Source: a virus
Strand: one strand, 5' to 3'
Virus record (IMG/VR): IMGVR_UViG_3300046028_010499
Coordinates: 1 to 41,744 of that record
DNA: 41,744 nucleotides
Shown here: positions 1-41,744 of the stretch, piece by piece
How the letters are laid out: every line of letters begins with the position of its first letter
How positions within the stretch are numbered: the stretch's first letter is position 1
Position numbers and translations under genes: made by a program
The notes under the pieces: model-generated
Database searches by the model: none
Seen by the model: only the letters and a program-made list of their open reading frames with translations
What the model was told of the DNA's origin: nothing

Positions 1-126
1 ATTTCACGCACGACCGGCCGCGTGCATTCATTGAGATGGACCCATGCGATGCCGCAACTGGCCAAGAAGCAATCAGCCGGCTGGGAGACTGGCTATCGCG
101 CGCGGGATGGGCTCTCAAGAACAGGG
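1..126. repeat. Terminal direct repeat, left copy
   Basis: Identical to 41616-41741 over 126 bp; the match breaks at base 127 (G here, C at 41742). It lies inside one gene that spans the junction. A repeat this short inside a coding region is most simply an assembly overlap of a circular molecule, though a short physical terminal redundancy is possible. Confidence 0.95.
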
Positions 127-236
127 GCGAGCCGAAGAGCACGATTTCGGCCGTATTCCGCAATCGGGTCGAAGACGCGGATGTTCAGCTCGAACAGGAG
201 AAGGTTCAGTCCGAACAGGAGGATGATGAGGGATGA
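1..236 (+). CDS. 3' part of the junction-spanning hypothetical protein
   Basis: Carboxy-terminal part of the protein that begins at 41486; codon AAT is split between 41615 and bases 1-2. Joined, the product has 121 residues, with a Trp-containing segment (LGDWLSRAGWAL) and a very acidic, Gln/Glu-rich tail. No family was recognised. Its stop overlaps the ATG of the next gene (ATGA at 233-236), so translation is probably coupled. It lies between the helicase-like gene and the primase gene in the circular map, so a role in replication is possible but unproven. Confidence 0.85.
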   Translation, partial: FTHDRPRAFIEMDPCDAATGQEAISRLGDWLSRAGWALKNRGEPKSTISAVFRNRVEDADVQLEQEKVQSEQEDDEG

Positions 237-628: not shown

Positions 629-862
629 ATGAGCACCCAACTCTACCTCGACTTCCATCAGCCGGCCCGTGTGGAGCCGGTCCGTGACGAGACGTACCGT
701 CGCCTGCAGCTCATCGGCCGCATCGCCCTGGACCTTCAGAAAGCTGCTTCGCCGCGTGGCGTATACATCCCGCAACTACTGAGTGACATTGCCCACAAGC
801 TCGCTTCTACGGGCTGGAAATCCCCGTACGACAAAGACTGCAAACCCTGGACTGAGCTATGA
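629..862 (+). CDS. Small hypothetical protein upstream of primase
   Basis: 77 residues, unrecognised. The N-terminus (LYLDFHQPARVEPV) looks extended and the rest is predicted helical with basic residues. The ATG has no Shine-Dalgarno sequence. The stop overlaps the primase start (ATGA at 859-862), so the two are probably translationally coupled. A primase accessory role would fit the position but nothing in the sequence proves it. Confidence 0.7.
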   Translation: MSTQLYLDFHQPARVEPVRDETYRRLQLIGRIALDLQKAASPRGVYIPQLLSDIAHKLASTGWKSPYDKDCKPWTEL

Positions 863-1923
863 AATTCATCACAGTCGAAAAAGCCGCGGCGGTCGACGGA
901 CTCGACCCCGTAGGTGTCCTCACCGCGCTCTACCCAGCTGCACGCGTCGATTCGGACGGGGGAACCGGATACAAGGTTCGCCTTCCTGACACTCGCCACG
1001 TCGCGGTCGACGGACGCGCGTGGTGCATTGAATGGAAGCGGGGGTCCGGCGGAGTCGGCGCAGTCTCGCTCATCATGAAGCTGCAGGACGTCGAACGTGA
1101 GGACGCCATTGCCATTCTAAGGCCCTTAACCTGTGTGGGGGTAGTCCCGCCTACCCCTGTGCGCCGAATTAGAGGCACTTCGATTGTGCCGGTGACGATG
1201 CCGTCGGCGGACGAGGGCCTGCGGGTCGCGGTGACGAAGTATCTGACCGAGACTCGCCGCCTCGATTCGCGACTCGTACTCAAGTTGTTCGCGGCCGGGT
1301 TCTTCATTCCGGGCACGCTCACGAACCTCACCGGCACTTGTCGCGCCGCAATGCGCGCGGCGAAGTCGGCGGGCGCCGAAGCCCCGACACCGACCCCGTC
1401 CGACTTCGTGCGGACTGCAGCCGTTATTACGCCGCTCGTTGCCTATGACGACATGCTCTTGCCCCGCCCCGAACGGCGCATTCTTGGCACCTCTGCACGC
1501 GCGATCTGCGCGGTAGAAGAAGGAAGCCCCAACAAGAAGAACCGGTTCCCGGATGGAGCGCTGAACGGCAAAGACCTTGCTGGGGCAGTTCTCGGCGGTG
1601 GGCCCGGGCTGAAGACCCTCGTGTTCACGGAGTCCCCCATTGAAGCCGCCTCGTATTTCCAATTTAGGGCACCTCCGCCCGGCGAGGTCGCGGTGATCGG
1701 TGTGTGCGGCTCCGGCTCGCCGGACGCGGCTCTAGCTCTCGCGAAACGCTGCAACCTGTCAGTCATCAGCGCCTACAACAACGACGACGCCGGACGGTCA
1801 TTCGAGGCAGCAACTCGCGAGGTGTGCGAGCGCGACGGCATCATTCACATGGCGGACTTCCCTGCCGCGAAAGACTGGAACGATTCGCTGCCCCCACGGA
1901 CTGTGCGCACAATGCGCACTTGA
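859..1923 (+). CDS. DNA primase-like TOPRIM protein
   Basis: 354 residues. Visible motifs are those of a TOPRIM domain: the glutamate-bearing strand (VFTESPIEAASY, about residues 253-265), an acidic turn (NNDDAGR, about 307-313) and a following KDWND segment near the C-terminus. In this family these residues bind the metal ions for RNA primer synthesis. The N-terminal part carries a WCIEWKRG segment followed by a helical region, but no clear CxxC zinc ribbon. The start overlaps the upstream stop. In the circular map it lies about 3 kb from the helicase-like gene at 39447, as expected for a replication module. A relaxase-type or DUF3991-like TOPRIM protein is the main alternative. Confidence 0.72.
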   Translation: MKFITVEKAAAVDGLDPVGVLTALYPAARVDSDGGTGYKVRLPDTRHVAVDGRAWCIEWKRGSGGVGAVSLIMKLQDVEREDAIAILRPLTCVGVVPPTPVRRIRGTSIVPVTMPSADEGLRVAVTKYLTETRRLDSRLVLKLFAAGFFIPGTLTNLTGTCRAAMRAAKSAGAEAPTPTPSDFVRTAAVITPLVAYDDMLLPRPERRILGTSARAICAVEEGSPNKKNRFPDGALNGKDLAGAVLGGGPGLKTLVFTESPIEAASYFQFRAPPPGEVAVIGVCGSGSPDAALALAKRCNLSVISAYNNDDAGRSFEAATREVCERDGIIHMADFPAAKDWNDSLPPRTVRTMRT

Positions 1924-20992: not shown

Positions 20993-22900
20993 TCACTTCC
21001 TCAGGATGCTTCCGGCTGACTCTGACGCCTCCGGTAGGGCGCTCTCTGGCGTCTTCGCGGCGCCACGGGTCAGGCGACCGGACCAGTCGTAAAGCTGCCA
21101 GAAGTGGACATAGAGCGCCGCGATGTATTTTTCGCAGTCGTTCCGGTGATTGTTGCCGTCGGGGGAGAACCATTCCCAGATGGGCTTCCCTGCCATGCGC
21201 GTCCCCTTTGCAGGGCGCCGGCGCTCATTGATGATTTGCAGGATGTAGGCGTTGTATGCGGCGACGGCTTCAACAGTTTGCGCGGGGGTGAAGGTGTAAA
21301 ACCCCTTGATGATACCGGCGTACTTCTTCTCCAATTCGACTTTGACGTCGTAAGCAGACATCGTGAGCACGTTAATCAGGTGCATCTTTGCATGAGCAGT
21401 GCCGGAATAGGGGTCACGCTCTTCCCACGTGAGCTTCGTCTTGCTCCATTCGACCGCCTCGGCACCACACCAGTTGAGGCCTTCTCTCGAATACTGCATG
21501 ATAGCTTCCACCGTTCCGCCCCTGCGATCCTCGTACTGGATATCGATGATGCACGCAGACGGGCAGTTGAACTTCGCGGAATAGTGCCGTTGCAGCAGAG
21601 CAAGGTCCGAGTAGTTAAGGCATGTCCCAGTCTCCACGAGATAACTCTCCGCAGTCGCGTAGTTGAACGCGCGAATCACGAACTCAAGACGGTTCGCCTG
21701 GACGTCGCCGCCGATGAGCAGCAGGTGAGGGACGAAGTCCTTTGGCAGCTCCCCTGCTTTGTAGGGGCGCATTAGATGCTTCATCTTCGCCGCCGTCAGC
21801 GAAACGATGTCTTCCGAATACGGGATGCCCCAGACCTGATTCCAAAAGTCGCGGCTGTTCGTGACAACTAGGCCGCCACGCTTGGTCGCGAGGTAGGCCC
21901 GCGCCATGGGTCCGAAGTTGTTTTTGTCGTCGGGTCCGACAAGGCCGTTCACCTGATACGAGCGAATGGTTGGGTCCGCGTGGGGGTTCGTCTGAATCCA
22001 TTCGCCAAGGTCCACGGCAGCCTTGCGCTGCTTGTTGTCCCAATGGGCGTCGCAGGTGTCGCTGCGGCAGACGTAATGCGCTGACGCTTCGACCCGAGCC
22101 AGGTCCCAATTCCCTTCATCATCGCGTGCGGCTGGGTCCCATTTCAGACCCCACTTAACCTCACGGCCGCCGAACTCCATCACCTGCATCATGCCGCACG
22201 CGTGACACGGCACCTGCCATTGAAACCGGGTGCCGCGCAGGTAGAACTGCCACAGCTCCGAATCGGTGTTTGAGGGGGTAGACGAGATGAGGTGCCGCCG
22301 CGTGCTGTTGTAGGACTCGGTCCGGTGGCGGACAAGTTCGAGGACAGACGCCTCCGTCCCGGATGCTTGAAGAAATTCGCCGGCCTCGTTGAGGAATATC
22401 CACTCCGCCGTCTTGCCCTTGCCGGCCGCAGTCGACCGCGACCCCTTGAACACGATGGATGTGCCGGACGTGTAGATTTTTTTGCTGAGCGCGTCCTTGT
22501 CTGTGTTCTTCGGCTTCAGCGCCCGAAACTCCGGGTTCGCGTTAATCATCGGCTCGAGTTCGAGCTCCACGAATTCGCGCGCGTTCTGCGCGTTGTCGTT
22601 CATCCACAGCAGCGGACCCGGCGCCCACCGAATCTTGTAGAGCACGCCGCACTTCAGGATGAAGGTTTTGCCGACGCGGGTGGGTCCGATGAAGATGATG
22701 TCGATAACGCCCGGGCGCTCAGTATCGTCCAGGGGCTGCTTCAGGTATGCGCGGCCCCTCCACGACAGGGTGCCCGGCTTTGCCTCAGTGCCCTTTGCGG
22801 GAATGTATAGTCCAACGACCCGCTGGGAGGGGCGCAGGCGCGGCGAATACTGGAAGAAGCTCGCGGCGAACGCTGAGCATGTCTCTGCCGCGTAGGTCAC
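20993..22900 (-). CDS. terL: Large terminase subunit (GpA family)
   Basis: 635 residues from a GTG start overlapping the small-terminase stop (GTGA). The ATPase part has a Walker A-like GPTRVGKT (72-79) and a Walker B-like WIFLNEAGEF (about 167-176). A four-cysteine zinc finger lies in the middle (CHACG and CRSDTC). The C-terminal nuclease part begins with LLIGGDVQANRLEF and contains CIIDIQYEDR. This is the lambda gpA architecture, so packaging by cos cleavage is likely. It translocates DNA through the portal into the prohead. Confidence 0.92.
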   Translation of the reverse strand: MTYAAETCSAFAASFFQYSPRLRPSQRVVGLYIPAKGTEAKPGTLSWRGRAYLKQPLDDTERPGVIDIIFIGPTRVGKTFILKCGVLYKIRWAPGPLLWMNDNAQNAREFVELELEPMINANPEFRALKPKNTDKDALSKKIYTSGTSIVFKGSRSTAAGKGKTAEWIFLNEAGEFLQASGTEASVLELVRHRTESYNSTRRHLISSTPSNTDSELWQFYLRGTRFQWQVPCHACGMMQVMEFGGREVKWGLKWDPAARDDEGNWDLARVEASAHYVCRSDTCDAHWDNKQRKAAVDLGEWIQTNPHADPTIRSYQVNGLVGPDDKNNFGPMARAYLATKRGGLVVTNSRDFWNQVWGIPYSEDIVSLTAAKMKHLMRPYKAGELPKDFVPHLLLIGGDVQANRLEFVIRAFNYATAESYLVETGTCLNYSDLALLQRHYSAKFNCPSACIIDIQYEDRRGGTVEAIMQYSREGLNWCGAEAVEWSKTKLTWEERDPYSGTAHAKMHLINVLTMSAYDVKVELEKKYAGIIKGFYTFTPAQTVEAVAAYNAYILQIINERRRPAKGTRMAGKPIWEWFSPDGNNHRNDCEKYIAALYVHFWQLYDWSGRLTRGAAKTPESALPEASESAGSILRK

Positions 22901-23691
22901 TCGTCTCCCCCCTCAGGACCCGCCGCCAACTCTTTCTCGATCATCGGCACCACGACGAGGTGCATCTTGCGGATTTCATCCACGTGCTCGTCGATAATTT
23001 CTTGTGCCGCGATCAGGTCGAGGCCTGGGCAAATCTCCTTGAGCTTCGGAGCTACCGTGGCGCCGAGCTTTTCATACCTGTTCGCGATAACTCCGAACAG
23101 CCCGCCGCTGATGCCTTTGATTTCTTCGATGGTTATCAGCTCCTTGCGCTTGAGCTGCTCATCTAACAGCTGCTTACGCAGCGTCATGGACAGGGTGGTC
23201 GCGGACGCGAAGTTGCTAAGCGCGGACTTGAGGGCACCGCCGCCCATCTTCCCGGCCAGCCGGAGCATGCGGAACGCGTCGTTCTTCGCGATGACCCACT
23301 GCTGGAGCGAGACTTCTTCGTATGAACCTTCGAACACGGGCTCCACGTCCGGTTCTCCGCTGCCCTGTTGCTGCCCGTTTGCGGGCTGTTCTGGGGGTTT
23401 TGATGCCGGCGGCGGGGGAAGTGATGCAACTGCGGCTGCCGCGGCGGCGGCGGGGTCTTTGGCGCGGGACACTTTGGCGGCGAACTGCCGGTTTGGGTTG
23501 GGCGGCATGTTCATCGCGCGCCAGTTGTTCGCCTCCTCTTTCGAGAATACCGGGGGCATGCCCTTCTCTGACCGAGCGCGACTTACGTATGATGGGTCGA
23601 CGTTCCACTCCGCGGCGATCTGAACTCCCGTGAGGGCCTTGCGGGTTGGGGTGGTGGTCTTGGAGCGGGGTTTGGTCACACCCTTGACCAA
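22897..23691 (-). CDS. terS: Small terminase subunit (putative)
   Basis: 264 residues from a TTG at 23691; a GTG at 23679 is an equally good start and there is no early ATG. The N-terminus has a helix-turn-helix (GVQIAAEWNVDPSYVSRARS), as in Nu1-type DNA recognition domains. After a Pro/Ala-rich linker (about 75-115) comes a helical oligomerisation-like part (about 125-250). It is directly upstream of and coupled to the large subunit and faces the repeat-rich non-coding region, where its DNA target probably lies. Confidence 0.75.
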   Translation of the reverse strand: MVKGVTKPRSKTTTPTRKALTGVQIAAEWNVDPSYVSRARSEKGMPPVFSKEEANNWRAMNMPPNPNRQFAAKVSRAKDPAAAAAAAVASLPPPPASKPPEQPANGQQQGSGEPDVEPVFEGSYEEVSLQQWVIAKNDAFRMLRLAGKMGGGALKSALSNFASATTLSMTLRKQLLDEQLKRKELITIEEIKGISGGLFGVIANRYEKLGATVAPKLKEICPGLDLIAAQEIIDEHVDEIRKMHLVVVPMIEKELAAGPEGGDE

Positions 23692-23741
23692 TTGGGCAAT
23701 CTACCTCTGACGGGGGGCCATTTATTGACCAATTTTGCAAT
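23684..23741. repeat. Two direct copies of TTGACCAATTnnGCAAT
   Basis: 17-mers at 23684-23700 and 23725-23741 differ only at two bases and are 41 bp apart, about four helical turns. They flank the start of the small terminase gene, so they could be small-terminase or regulator binding sites. Confidence 0.75.
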
Positions 23742-23942
23742 TTTTGGCTCTCGGAAAAGCACCGGGCTGGCTCCGCACCTCTGGTGAATAGATGGCCCAG
23801 GAGGACCCATAATAGCCTCTCCAAGGCCCTATCTCTCGCGGGGCGACAGGGGATACCACTCTTTGAAACGCGGGGCTAGGAATGGCCTTAGAATCGAAAT
23901 CGGCCTTTTTGGGTTTTATGCTTTTCGCCTGCTTTCAGAAAG

Positions 23943-24226
23943 CTCCCTATCCTCCCTATCACTCCCTAGCCGTTTTTGAACAGGTTTTACTAGGGAGTTT
24001 CATAGGTAAAATAGCGTTTTACTCCCTAGCAAGTCTCCCGTACGTATCTGCAAATATTATTTGATTGGTTGGGGGGGTGGGTTGGTTGAAATCATTCGAA
24101 ATAAAATATTGTTAGGGCTGGGTTTGGGCAAACATAGGGAGAAATGAGCTAAAGCGTTGGTATCCCTGTGAGATGCGTCAGAAACGGGCATAGGGAGGCA
24201 TAGGGAGGCTAGGGAGGCATAGGGAG
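23943..24226. repeat. Ten TAGGGAG iterons in two orientations
   Basis: Reverse copies (CTCCCTA) at 23943, 23952, 23962 and 24022; forward copies at 23991, 24135, 24191, 24201, 24210 and 24220. The clusters at each end have 9-10 bp spacing, close to one helical turn, and point towards each other. CTAGGGAGT and ACTCCCTAG (23990-24029) can also pair. Such iterons bind initiators at origins or terminase at cosB-like sites. Confidence 0.85.
24067..24085 (+). other. G-run tract, possible two-layer G-quadruplex
   Basis: GGTTGGGGGGGTGGGTTGG within an otherwise AT-rich stretch between the iteron clusters. It has four or more G-runs separated by one or two bases. Confidence 0.5.
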
Positions 24227-24373
24227 TTCGGCATCGGGGCGGTGTTCTGGGGGTGCTTTTGCCTGCCGTTGCAATTGTGAAAAAAATTTAAGCGTGTTGT
24301 ACCAGGATAGAAACCGGTATCAAACCGGCCTCAAATCGCTCCCCTTTTTTGGTGTCGGATTACGTATGGTGCC

Positions 24374-24403
24374 TGCAACAACGAGTACTTACGTGATGTT
24401 GCA
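24374..24403. promoter_or_regulatory. Dyad TGCAACA / TGTTGCA with TTACGT in the centre
   Basis: Perfect 7-bp inverted arms at 24374-24380 and 24397-24403 around CTTACGTG. Same components as the dyad at 24459-24486, with arms inverted. Likely a regulator binding site. Confidence 0.6.
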
Positions 24404-24458
24404 AAACCGGCTAAAACACCCGTTCAGAGCCATCCCGACGCCTTGAAAACCAGGGTAG

Positions 24459-24486
24459 TGTTGCAACGACTTACGTAACTGCAACA
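24459..24486. promoter_or_regulatory. Dyad TGTTGCA / TGCAACA with TTACGTAA in the centre
   Basis: Perfect 7-bp arms at 24459-24465 and 24480-24486 flank CTTACGTAAC. The 13-mer ACTTACGTAACTG (24469-24481) recurs exactly at 38045-38057 in the other control region. It lies 10 bp before the GTGCGCAC module of the HNH gene. Confidence 0.65.
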
Positions 24487-24496
24487 GGCGTTCTTT

Positions 24497-24528
24497 GTGC
24501 GCACAGTCCGCACGAGTTGGCATATAAG
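24497..24528 (+). promoter_or_regulatory. GTGCGCAC-CATATAAG promoter-like module, copy A
   Basis: Palindrome GTGCGCAC (24497-24504), then AGTCCG, then CATATAAG (24521-24528). The module spans 32 bp and is followed after three bases (GGC) by the ATG of the HNH gene. Five such modules share exactly this geometry. Confidence 0.75.
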
Positions 24529-24531
24529 GGC

Positions 24532-25041
24532 ATGAGCCCTACCCCCTCCGGCTACACTACCCAAGAGCAGCGCGCCGCCCGGCGCAAACAAACAGAATGG
24601 GGGCCCGCGAACATCACGCAGCACAAGCGGTGGCTTGTGTACCTTGGCGTTGCTAATCCCCGTCAGAAAGGGGTTATCCAGACGCCGCGGGCGTCATACG
24701 AGCACCGCCTTGTATGGCTGAAGCACAACCCGGGTTGCGTAATCCCCAAGGGGTTCGTCATTCACCACATCGATGAAGACCCGCTCAACAACGTAATTTC
24801 GAATTTGCAGATGATGAGTGTTGCCGAGCACATTGCCCACCACCGCCGCGGCATCTATCAGTGCGACAAGGTCGACGGCTTGCATGTCAAAACCTGCAAA
24901 ATGTGTTCAGTCCTAAAGCCCATGACTGATTTCAAAGTGAACGGGTACAGCCGGACCGGAACTAAGACCTACAAACCTGTTTGTAGCGCGTGCTACAGGG
25001 CCCACTGCAAACCAACCCGTCGGCTAAAGTCCGCAGCATGA
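24532..25041 (+). CDS. HNH endonuclease with zinc ribbon
   Basis: 169 residues from the ATG at 24532 (a TTG at 24517 lies inside the promoter-like module). The HNH core reads VIHHIDEDPLNN (77-88) with His78/His79 and Asn87/88, then MMSVAEHIAHH (94-104). The C-terminus has a CxxC...CxxC zinc ribbon (Cys122, 125, 151, 154). HNH proteins next to terminase genes assist cos cleavage in some HK97-like phages; that role is possible here since it faces the putative cos/iteron region. A homing endonuclease is the alternative. Confidence 0.82.
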   Translation: MSPTPSGYTTQEQRAARRKQTEWGPANITQHKRWLVYLGVANPRQKGVIQTPRASYEHRLVWLKHNPGCVIPKGFVIHHIDEDPLNNVISNLQMMSVAEHIAHHRRGIYQCDKVDGLHVKTCKMCSVLKPMTDFKVNGYSRTGTKTYKPVCSACYRAHCKPTRRLKSAA

Positions 25042-38206: not shown

Positions 38207-38635
38207 ATGAAATTCACAGCTTACAAATCATCGCAGGAAGCCGCAGCCGCGGCTGCTGCCTCCATTATCGCTCCTGCCGGAGACCACGCTTTTGTCGTTG
38301 TCGCGGCGGACACTGACGCAAAAAGCAAGACCTCCGGAAAGGCCATGATCGCACTCGGACTCTCGCTCACCACCCCGGTCGGAGAACGCAAAATCTCAGA
38401 CTGGATTATCGAGACGCAGGCGGAAAAGCTCCGCTGTCTCTGCGAGTCGCTCGGCATCCTCGACGTCTACAACACCGGCGAGATCGCGAAGTCCGACTTG
38501 CTCGGCGCTCGCGGCGTAGTCCGTGTCTCGCTTGAGCCCGACAAGAAGAAGCCGGGCACGATGCGAAACAACGTCGTGACCTACGTCGCGGCCCCCGTTG
38601 CCGAAGAGCAGCCCACTGAGTCCGCGCCGTTCTGA
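38207..38635 (+). CDS. ssDNA-binding protein (DUF669-like)
   Basis: 142 residues. The layout resembles the DUF669-type phage ssDNA-binding proteins: an N-terminal helix, DHAFVVVAADTDAKSKTSGKAMIALGLSL, then KISDWIIET, KLRCLCESLGI, and finally LLGARGVVRVSLEPDKKKPG. The C-terminus is acidic (EEQPTESAPF), as in SSB proteins that use their tail for partner binding. It is the first gene after the control region and precedes the sigma-like gene. Confidence 0.65.
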   Translation: MKFTAYKSSQEAAAAAAASIIAPAGDHAFVVVAADTDAKSKTSGKAMIALGLSLTTPVGERKISDWIIETQAEKLRCLCESLGILDVYNTGEIAKSDLLGARGVVRVSLEPDKKKPGTMRNNVVTYVAAPVAEEQPTESAPF

Positions 38636-38675
38636 GCGCCGACCAAAAACGCAAACCAGCAACCCCCACGCTGCC

Positions 38676-39365
38676 ATGCAATTTCAACCTTACTCACCGA
38701 CCCGGGACTGCTACGGCATTCTCGCGTCGCTCACAAACCGCCGCGTCGCCCCCGAGCGATACACCGCCGATTCAATCACTCACTGCATTCGCACTGAGAT
38801 CGATGTCGCGCAGCGGACTAGCCTCGGTCGCTTCTCCTGCAAATTCGCGGGGGACCTAATCAAGTCCTTCGCTATTGAGCGCAACGAGTCTATCGAGAGC
38901 GTTGCGACAGAGGTCGCCTGCTACATCGGACTGATGGGCAAGAGCGGCGGCTGCGTTAATGCGATTGAGAGCTATGACCCGATGCAGTCGGGCGTCGCAT
39001 CCTATTACCGCGCGGCCTATCAAAACGGCATCCGGAAGCTCCGGCGCGAGTATACGTCCGCGCAGGCGCAGGCGACGTGTTCGCTCGCAGCATTCGCAGA
39101 TGAGGACGGCGATTGCATCATCCCGAACGGCGAGATGGACCCTGCCGAAATCCTGGAACGTGCTGAGTCATCTGAGCTCATCACGCGCCTGCTCAACGAG
39201 TCGCTGACGTCCGAAGAGGCGTCATACATTCGTGAGGCCTACGGCATCGGCAGTCAGCAGACTACCGTGACTGCCATCGCTGAACGTCGCGGCGTATCGC
39301 GCCGGACTGCCACCTACGTGCTCGGACGTGCCCTGCAAAAGCTCCGCCACGCGTATCGCGCCTGA
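38676..39365 (+). CDS. Sigma factor-like protein
   Basis: 229 residues from the ATG at 38676. Residues ~82-125 (CYIGLMGKSGGCVNAIESYDP, then YYRAAYQNGIRKLRRE) resemble sigma region 2 with its NAIExYDP signature. The C-terminus has a region-4-type helix-turn-helix (SLTSEEASYIREAYG, then TAIAERRGVSRRTATYVLGRALQKLRHAY, about 177-227). It is shorter than a housekeeping sigma and fits an ECF-like or phage-encoded alternative sigma factor. The dispersed GTGCGCAC-CATMTAAG modules are obvious candidate targets. A region-4-only regulator is the main alternative. Confidence 0.65.
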   Translation: MQFQPYSPTRDCYGILASLTNRRVAPERYTADSITHCIRTEIDVAQRTSLGRFSCKFAGDLIKSFAIERNESIESVATEVACYIGLMGKSGGCVNAIESYDPMQSGVASYYRAAYQNGIRKLRREYTSAQAQATCSLAAFADEDGDCIIPNGEMDPAEILERAESSELITRLLNESLTSEEASYIREAYGIGSQQTTVTAIAERRGVSRRTATYVLGRALQKLRHAYRA

Positions 39366-39446: not shown

Positions 39447-41465
39447 ATGCTAGTTTCCATTTATTCCTCGTCCCCCGGCCCCCATTCATTCTCAAGCGCC
39501 GCGGCGCTGCTGGCCCCCGGCGGCAAAACCCTTATCGCCTCTCTCGCGTCTGAGCTTAAGCCCGACGGAGAGCAGCTGACGCTTCAGGCGCCGGCCGCGC
39601 TCATCGGCTTAGATCTACTTCAGGTCGCGCTGATACTCGCCAAGACGCCCGTCCCCGTCGGCATCATGGTCGACGATATCGACTCTCTCGACGTCCTTAA
39701 TGATACCACGCTGGGTCAGCTCGCTATCGACGTGATTGCTGCCCAAACTGAGGCTCTTGAGGACGGTATCCCCAACGCGGAGGCTGCTAACCTCATCTTG
39801 CGGCTTGCGGGCATTGCAGCGGCATTGCCGGTCGAGTTCGCGGCTGTCTACATTCCTGAAGCGGTCGCGCTGTCTGGACTCGCGAAGAGGGATTGGAACA
39901 AGGTCCTGACGGCCGCGCGGAATGCTGCGCAGCGCAACTGCAGCGTCGATAGCGGCGTGCTCATCGAAGGTCCGGTCGGAACCTGGGCCCCGAAGATTGC
40001 CGAGAAAATCGCTGACAAGTGCTACGTGTCGGCAGGGTCCATCTGTCTGCTTGATGCCTCTGGCGCTCTTGAGCCCCATCGCGGCGCGATGCTCACGTCG
40101 TGGCTTGATGATGAGAAGCAGGTCCTGCTGCAGAAGCTGAGCAAAGACGGCAAGGAACATATCGGTCTGAAGATGCTGCCGGCGGTCGGCACTGCGTTGG
40201 ACGGCTGGATTCGCGGCAGCGGCAAGCGTGACCCGAATCTGCGTCACACGGACATGACCTACCCCGTGCCGGTGCTTGTCCGCACGGCGAAGGGATCGCG
40301 CATCGGAACAGGCTACGACCGCGAGACGCGCGTCTTGGCCGGCGAAGGCGAAATCAAGCTCACTGACAACGCTACGGCGCTGTCGACGCTCCGCGAAATC
40401 ACGCGCGACTTCGTATGGCCGACCGCGGCAGATGAGGCAAAGGCGTTCGCGTGGTGCATCACGCCGGCCCTTGTAGCAGGAAAATGGATTACCGGGCGCC
40501 CACCCTTCTTCTTCCTTGAGAAATCGCGTAACGGCGCCGGCGGCGGAACGTTCGCTGCGCTGATATCGTCGATTTACTCGCAAGACGCGGGAATCATCAA
40601 CGGACCCGGCACGGGCGAGGCACTGGAAGAGTCTCTGATCGCGAAGCTGTCGCGCGGATACCCCCTCATCACACTCGATAACATTCGAGGAACAGTGCTC
40701 ACGGACTGCTCACTACTCGAGTCTGCTCTCACTGAGAAGTCTCTCACCGGCCGCGTGAAGTTCGAGCGCCTCGCTGAAATCGACATGAGCCGCCGCATCT
40801 TCGCCTGCATCAGCAACGGTGCCGAGATGTCCCCCGATATGGCCTCACGCGCGTTCAAATTGCGCCTGCTCGCGCAGATGGCCGGATATGCATACTCTTT
40901 CAACGGCCGCGAGGCCCTCTGCGAACACGTCGCGAAGAACCGCTCGCGCTACATTTCGGCGATTTATTCGCTGATTCACAACTGGGAGCAGGCGGGTGCC
41001 AAGTTGGGCAACACGCACGGCTTTCGCTTCCCTGATTGGGCGGCGGTCGCCGGCGGTATCATCGCTCACGCGTTCGGCGGTATTGAAATCTGCGCCGACA
41101 TCGCAGTCGACGCCATGAACGCTGTCGACCCGCGCTTCCAACAGATGCGCACGATGGCGAGCATGGCCGCTTCCAGCACGACGTACACCGAGTGGTCCGC
41201 CGGGCAGCTCGAAAATCTCGTCGCTGACAAGATGCGCCTGAACAAGGCGACAATCGGCACTTGGATGACAGAGCGCTTTGGCGACAAGGGCGAAATCGGC
41301 GAGGAAAAAACCTCGATTATCGACTGCTTCGAAATCGTCCGCGTCATCCGCAGGGGGTCCTCGGAACATCCCATCAAGCCGTTCTACCGCTTCCGCGCGG
41401 TCGCCCCGTCCGTGAAACAGGCCGACCTCGGCATCCCCTCCGCGCCCAATGCATCTATCGCTTAA
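39447..41465 (+). CDS. Putative replicative helicase/ATPase (AAA+/SF3-like)
   Basis: 672 residues. The N-terminal ~230 residues are Ala/Leu-rich and not recognised. The ATPase-like core has a P-loop-like SRNGAGGGTF (about 359-368), a Walker B-like LITLDNI (about 407-413), a sensor-like IFACISNGA near 450 and an arginine finger-like SRAFKLRL. The order resembles phage replication ATPases near a primase. The P-loop lacks the usual Lys-Ser/Thr. In the circular map the TOPRIM primase follows three genes later. A DNA-dependent ATPase of another kind is possible. Confidence 0.65.
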   Translation: MLVSIYSSSPGPHSFSSAAALLAPGGKTLIASLASELKPDGEQLTLQAPAALIGLDLLQVALILAKTPVPVGIMVDDIDSLDVLNDTTLGQLAIDVIAAQTEALEDGIPNAEAANLILRLAGIAAALPVEFAAVYIPEAVALSGLAKRDWNKVLTAARNAAQRNCSVDSGVLIEGPVGTWAPKIAEKIADKCYVSAGSICLLDASGALEPHRGAMLTSWLDDEKQVLLQKLSKDGKEHIGLKMLPAVGTALDGWIRGSGKRDPNLRHTDMTYPVPVLVRTAKGSRIGTGYDRETRVLAGEGEIKLTDNATALSTLREITRDFVWPTAADEAKAFAWCITPALVAGKWITGRPPFFFLEKSRNGAGGGTFAALISSIYSQDAGIINGPGTGEALEESLIAKLSRGYPLITLDNIRGTVLTDCSLLESALTEKSLTGRVKFERLAEIDMSRRIFACISNGAEMSPDMASRAFKLRLLAQMAGYAYSFNGREALCEHVAKNRSRYISAIYSLIHNWEQAGAKLGNTHGFRFPDWAAVAGGIIAHAFGGIEICADIAVDAMNAVDPRFQQMRTMASMAASSTTYTEWSAGQLENLVADKMRLNKATIGTWMTERFGDKGEIGEEKTSIIDCFEIVRVIRRGSSEHPIKPFYRFRAVAPSVKQADLGIPSAPNASIA

Positions 41466-41485: not shown

Positions 41486-41744
41486 ATGCAAGACGTCCAC
41501 ATGTTTGTCCGCCACCTGGAAATGACCAAGGGCTTCACCGGTCGCGTTGAAGATATCTACTACACCGTTCTTACCAGCAACGATAAGACTACTCTCGAAT
41601 TCTCCGTCCGTGTTAATTTCACGCACGACCGGCCGCGTGCATTCATTGAGATGGACCCATGCGATGCCGCAACTGGCCAAGAAGCAATCAGCCGGCTGGG
41701 AGACTGGCTATCGCGCGCGGGATGGGCTCTCAAGAACAGGGCCC
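41486..41744 (+). CDS. 5' part of the junction-spanning hypothetical protein
   Basis: ATG at 41486 after a C-rich leader; no stop before the window end. The frame continues at base 3 and ends at 236, giving 121 residues in all. It starts MQDVHMFVRHLEMTKG with a beta-rich part. Function unknown. Confidence 0.85.
   Translation, partial: MQDVHMFVRHLEMTKGFTGRVEDIYYTVLTSNDKTTLEFSVRVNFTHDRPRAFIEMDPCDAATGQEAISRLGDWLSRAGWALKNRA
41616..41741. repeat. Terminal direct repeat, right copy
   Basis: Exact copy of bases 1-126. The three bases after it (41742-41744, CCC) do not continue the match and may be a contig-end artefact. Confidence 0.95.

Follow-up and report, generated by a model that had tools for sequence, protein, structure and literature searches.

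Few environmental phages have a known replication origin, and an array of short repeats lying beside packaging genes raises the question of whether it serves to copy the DNA or to package it. Such an array was found in a viral contig of 41,744 nt (IMG/VR record IMGVR_UViG_3300046028_010499); the whole of this stretch is called the window here, and the phage from which it comes encodes a terminase and a portal of its own. A sequence-only reading had proposed either an iteron origin or a cosB-like terminase site.

Exact matching located ten TAGGGAG words at 23943-24226, four in reverse and six in forward orientation, in agreement with the sequence-only reading, and a single further copy in the window (35362, plus strand). 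The expected number for the whole window is 2.1, and 11 copies were reached in none of 100 shuffles. In 200 random genomes with the same dinucleotide make-up, the best two-orientation 7-mer cluster within 400 bp had 5 copies. Allowing one mismatch yielded no extra copies at 23500-24700. The words of the outer clusters are spaced at periods of 9 and 10 bp, slightly less than a helical turn and close to the helical-turn spacing described earlier. When reverse-complemented, the left cluster reads TAGGGAG-3-TAGGGAG-2-TAGGGAG, and the right cluster reads TAGGGAG-3-TAGGGAG-2-TAGGGAG-3-TAGGGAG. The spacers thus mirror each other exactly (3,2 nt on the left versus 3,2,3 nt on the right), and the arms of the array are 88% complementary over 26 nt. 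The earlier description of the words as facing each other did not hold for the outer clusters: the plus strand reads CTCCCTA on the left and TAGGGAG on the right, so that the G-rich words diverge. The AT-rich, G-run-containing stretch amid the array was found again, with an A+T content of 57.5% between the inner copies versus 40.6% in the window. The cumulative GC skew of the window showed no extreme at the array, and no promoter-like sites were found in the array region.

The array is flanked by divergent genes (Table 1). On the left lie a portal gene and the genes for both terminase subunits, which are read leftward, terS beginning 252 bp from the array; on the right, an HNH endonuclease gene is read rightward. 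A second set of repeats, TTACGTA/TTACGTG and GTTGCAA, lies between the array and the HNH gene (24355-24490); these are possible operator or terminase sites. The two ends of the window (1-130 and 41615-41744) overlap by about 127 bp and are identical save for the last few bases, indicating that the contig is circular or circularly permuted as assembled. Searches of phage records, and of viral contigs with TerL, P0001, the portal and a head-region protein, gave no useful close relatives of the window.

Table 1. Positions of the array elements and of the genes discussed, in window coordinates.
Feature	Position	Strand	Remarks
Left iteron cluster	23943..23968	-	Three TAGGGAG words (starts 23943, 23952, 23962), starts 9 and 10 bp apart
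Iteron	23991..23997	+	12-nt inverted pair with 24022-24028
Iteron	24022..24028	-	Exact TAGGGAG
Core, inner iterons on either side	24029..24134	.	57.5% A+T (64.7% at 24043-24110), G run; candidate melting region
Iteron	24135..24141	+	Exact TAGGGAG
Right iteron cluster	24191..24226	+	Four TAGGGAG words (starts 24191, 24201, 24210, 24220), starts 10, 9 and 10 bp apart; mirrors the left cluster
Terminase small subunit, terS	22897..23691	-	Matches PHROG weakly; HTH-like N-terminus on visual inspection
Terminase large subunit, terL, lambda gpA class	20993..22900	-	PF05876, PF20454
HNH endonuclease gene	24517..25041	+	PF13392; divergent from terS
P0001, putative replicative ATPase/helicase	39447..41465	+	Over ~230 aa, 22-27% identical to the ATPase region of proteins 600-990 aa long; proposed initiator
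Toprim primase-like protein	859..1923	+	PF13155; apparently the separate primase half
Sigma/HTH-like protein	38598-39365		Encoded in the window

Among the proteins encoded in the window, P0001 is the putative replicative helicase. Its relatives are 600-990-aa proteins from genomes of alphaproteobacteria and of the phylum Acidobacteriota (tblastn E down to 9.5e-14), and Toprim domains were demonstrated in two of these long proteins. P0001 is therefore classified, on sequence similarity, as a putative distant member of the Toprim-ATPase primase-helicase family. It had no match in Pfam, its P-loop is doubtful, and two structure predictions were of very low confidence and unusable. It also lacks the tail that bears the array in its Toprim-ATPase relatives. 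The array of the window lies at the 3' end of neither P0001 nor the Toprim gene, and is 17 kb away from P0001. A D5/SF3 gene was likewise not detected in the window, neither by a PF08706 (D5_N) match nor by a D5-profile hit. The assignment of P0001 itself as a D5 helicase was rejected, since a profile comparison between D5 and P0001 gave no support for homology.

Similar arrays were nevertheless found in other phages. A first set of loci was obtained by scanning viral contigs for tandem TAGGGAG words. Many of these loci carry a mirrored array directly after a D5/SF3 helicase gene (PF08706), followed by terS-terL-portal, and a genome scan revealed the same arrangement in named alphaproteobacteria. 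As these loci had been selected by the word, D5 relatives were next gathered by protein alone. In this sample, an array was present at most 900 bp 3' of D5 in 58 of the 76 distinct loci, by a lax criterion that admitted a few irregular four-copy cases. The arrays occur with or without a nearby GpA terminase. A typical one has a single word, followed after about 97 bp by two words 9 bp apart, then a core of about 85-105 bp and finally the mirror image. The word varies between loci (TAGGGAG, TAGGGAGG, TAGGGACG, CAGGGACG, GGCCCGA or GGGCTTGA), and the same layout was seen with another word in many D5 loci that lack TAGGGAG (TAGGGACG, CAGGGACG, GGCCCGA, GGGCTTGA or CGGCTTGA).

The closest counterparts of the window array are the D5 arrays of alphaproteobacterial phages (L043, L015, Aurantimonas phage AmM-1 and RcapNL). 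They often use TAGGGAG too, with about ten copies in about 300 bp; like the window, they have mirror clusters around a core, and many lie just upstream of terS-terL-portal. Unlike the window array, however, they adjoin the D5 gene. Moreover, G-rich words point inward in the D5 arrays but outward in the window, and the period is mostly 9 bp there, versus a mixture of 9 and 10 bp here. The ends of AmM-1 were left out as evidence, because its record opens at a gene. Two contigs, one from Nonomuraea (L179:7595-7818) and one from an uncultured Ruminococcus (L121:5198-5441), also carry TAGGGAG arrays around an A+T-rich centre, which suggests that the word recurs outside Proteobacteria. Clusters of TAGGGAG/CTCCCTA are frequent in Rikenellaceae assemblies (Alistipes, Tidjanibacter; L124, L125, L129-L131 and others); lacking any D5 match, they were left out of the comparison and are apparently an unrelated dispersed repeat.

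Relatives of the Toprim-ATPase family were gathered by protein in the same way as the D5 set. In 52 of 53 distinct untruncated loci, an array was located in the 3' end of the primase-helicase gene itself, mostly within the last 350 bp. These arrays typically have 7-16 copies with 9/10-bp periods, in both orientations and over about 300 bp, and the window array is alike in all these respects (compared with L298, L306 and L364, whose helicases are distantly homologous to P0001). The difference is that their arrays lie inside the helicase gene and use other words, whereas the array of the window is 17 kb off. Array positions are conserved in this family, while the words are lineage-specific (GGGGAAC, CATTCAC, CGTCCAC, ATCCTCC and others). 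The core is modestly enriched in A+T (42% versus 34%). Where a gpA-class terminase was seen, it was 4-10 kb from the array. Among control pieces taken from elsewhere in these loci, 10 of 88 passed the lax criterion, all with 5-6 irregular copies.

Word similarity was compared pairwise across the 26 D5 loci in which the array was clear and TerL was long, a design that only partly removes shared ancestry. With TerL accounted for, word similarity correlated with D5 similarity (partial r 0.32, permutation p 0.0005), and for the last 180 aa of D5 the partial r was 0.42. With D5 accounted for, no correlation was found in these loci between word and TerL (partial r -0.05, p 0.80), and the value for TerS was 0.05 in 18 D5 loci. 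The same test on the Toprim-ATPase loci, in which helicase and terminase are co-inherited, gave partial r values of 0.19 and 0.12, at p values of about 0.05 and 0.06. In both helicase families, then, arrays keep their geometry while the word differs by lineage, and in the D5 set the word follows the helicase.

Independent cases point the same way as the D5 set. In phi105, an AGTAACA array is located 3' of gp60 and 5.4 kb from the annotated cos. The Methylobacterium currus plasmid unnamed3 has an array 3' of D5, and its gene table, which is incomplete, lists no phage structural or terminase genes. Further arrays were found on the Tritonibacter plasmid p5 and on several contigs where no gpA-class terminase lies within reach. 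On a Methylobacterium currus plasmid that also has CRISPR genes of type I-E, a CCCTCG array and a D5 gene of phage type (L282:6192-6600) apparently serve as the replicon.

Taken together, it is likely, though on comparative grounds, that the TAGGGAG array is the iteron replication origin of this phage. Of the two proposals of the sequence-only reading, the origin is favoured over the cosB-like site because arrays accompany two primase-helicase families, stay in place when the terminase belongs to another type or lies 4-10 kb away, and, in the D5 set, carry a word that tracks the helicase rather than the terminase. The window has the short repeats near helical-turn spacing and the adjacent A+T-rich region of an iteron origin. 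As in the origins of phage-inducible chromosomal islands (PICIs) and of the D5/SF3 type, inverted iteron sets flank an A+T-rich core, but a D5/SF3 gene immediately upstream is missing. As in the origins embedded in Toprim-ATPase genes, a helicase of the family is encoded, if a distant one, but the array does not lie in its 3' end. Copy number, length, period and mirror layout all fit an origin. The remote P0001 gene, the adjoining terS, the outward polarity and the mixed 9/10-bp periods, together with the lack of D5, do not fit the known classes. The origin of the window would then be parted from its helicase gene and sit in the divergent region between terS and the HNH gene, probably close to cos.

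We propose that a phage-encoded initiator binds the iterons, most likely the module formed by P0001 and the Toprim protein. Initiator complexes would assemble on the two mirror-image clusters that flank the core; the core would then melt, the helicase would load, and replication would start at the array.

Two known systems can be compared with this proposal. The lambda origin lies inside gene O and has four iterons beside an A+T-rich region, which are bound by the phage initiator. Iterons next to an A+T-rich region are thus common to both, but the four iterons of lambda are longer, lie inside the initiator gene and do not form a two-cluster mirror. In phage-inducible islands (SaPI and the pri-rep-ori of E. 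coli PICI), the initiator gene is followed directly on its 3' side by an A+T-rich region with a set of short iterons on each flank, and together with the initiator this segment drives the replication of a plasmid (PMC6092414). The same logic of melting and loading is proposed for the window by analogy, including an initiator that is an element-encoded primase/helicase. The islands differ in that their origins immediately follow the initiator gene (PMC6092414), whereas no such gene adjoins the array of the window, and in that they are satellites.

The array could instead be a cosB- or pac-like site, at which TerS binds the TAGGGAG words and positions the gpA-type TerL to cut a nearby cosN. Its place upstream of terS in a phage with a gpA-class terminase is that of cos in lambda-like genomes, D5 phages with such a terminase often have their arrays directly upstream of terS as well, and no D5-type initiator is adjacent in the window. 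In the RcapNL record, a 26-base cohesive overhang is annotated right past the array, though this genome is listed as circularly permuted (PMC8601537). These points are weighed against related arrays that stay by the helicase gene when the terminase is distant or of another class, an array on a plasmid without an annotated terminase, and a word that tracks neither TerL nor TerS once D5 is accounted for in the D5 set. In lambda, cosB comprises three R sites and an IHF site on one side of cosN. The window shares with it repeated sites just upstream of terS and a gpA-class terminase, but its two-sided mirror of ten words is unlike this one-sided layout. We therefore regard a packaging site as unlikely. 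A joint origin and packaging entry site, detached from the helicase gene and fixed next to terS, in which initiator and terminase share or compete for the TAGGGAG words and so link copying to packaging, seems more doubtful still.

Control of transcription was also considered. As an operator, the array would be bound by a phage regulator that controls transcription in both directions, towards terS on the left and the HNH gene on the right, which would suit its position between two divergent genes, the sigma/HTH-like protein encoded in the window, and the other repeats (TTACGTA, GTTGCAA) nearer the HNH gene. However, a long mirror array of ten words around an A+T-rich core far exceeds the usual need of an operator, the region lacks detectable promoter-like sites, and similar arrays elsewhere are located 3' of or inside genes, not at promoters; this reading is very unlikely. 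Hardly any weight is given to the idea that the array is a relic of a D5-type origin, or a hijacked one, that lost its initiator gene by replacement and is now either non-working or dependent on a helper initiator in trans. The word and the place before terS-terL-portal are those of many D5 phages, with the D5 gene missing, and D5-style arrays likewise occur in two Methylobacterium loci (L128, L183) whose fetched stretch shows neither D5 nor TerL. Yet the ten exact copies and the kept mirror spacing suggest selection, and the polarity is opposite to that of D5 arrays with G-rich words. The two Methylobacterium arrays (L128:1835-2149 and L183:2054-2368) are themselves TAGGGAG mirror arrays, and the loci, which gave no D5 or TerL profile hit, are perhaps satellites or remnants that use the initiator of a helper.

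Iteron origins as such are well known; the variant proposed here is one uncoupled from its helicase gene and placed beside the packaging genes. No description of arrays of this style was found in the open-licence literature. In 2018, the origin design of the islands was described as common to no known bacterial replicon besides phage-inducible islands (PMC6092414), and our comparison extends this design to full phages and a plasmid. It also provides a search rule for phage origins: where a D5 or Toprim-ATPase helicase gene is present, its 3' end, or the sequence just after it, should be inspected for a mirrored array with a 9-bp period and a lineage-specific word. The natural pairs of initiator and word are a resource on how the C-terminal domains of these helicases read DNA. 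The window represents a case in which the array is parted from the helicase gene, but of greater interest is the wider pattern, a geometry kept in two helicase families while the word differs by lineage and, in the D5 set, follows the helicase.
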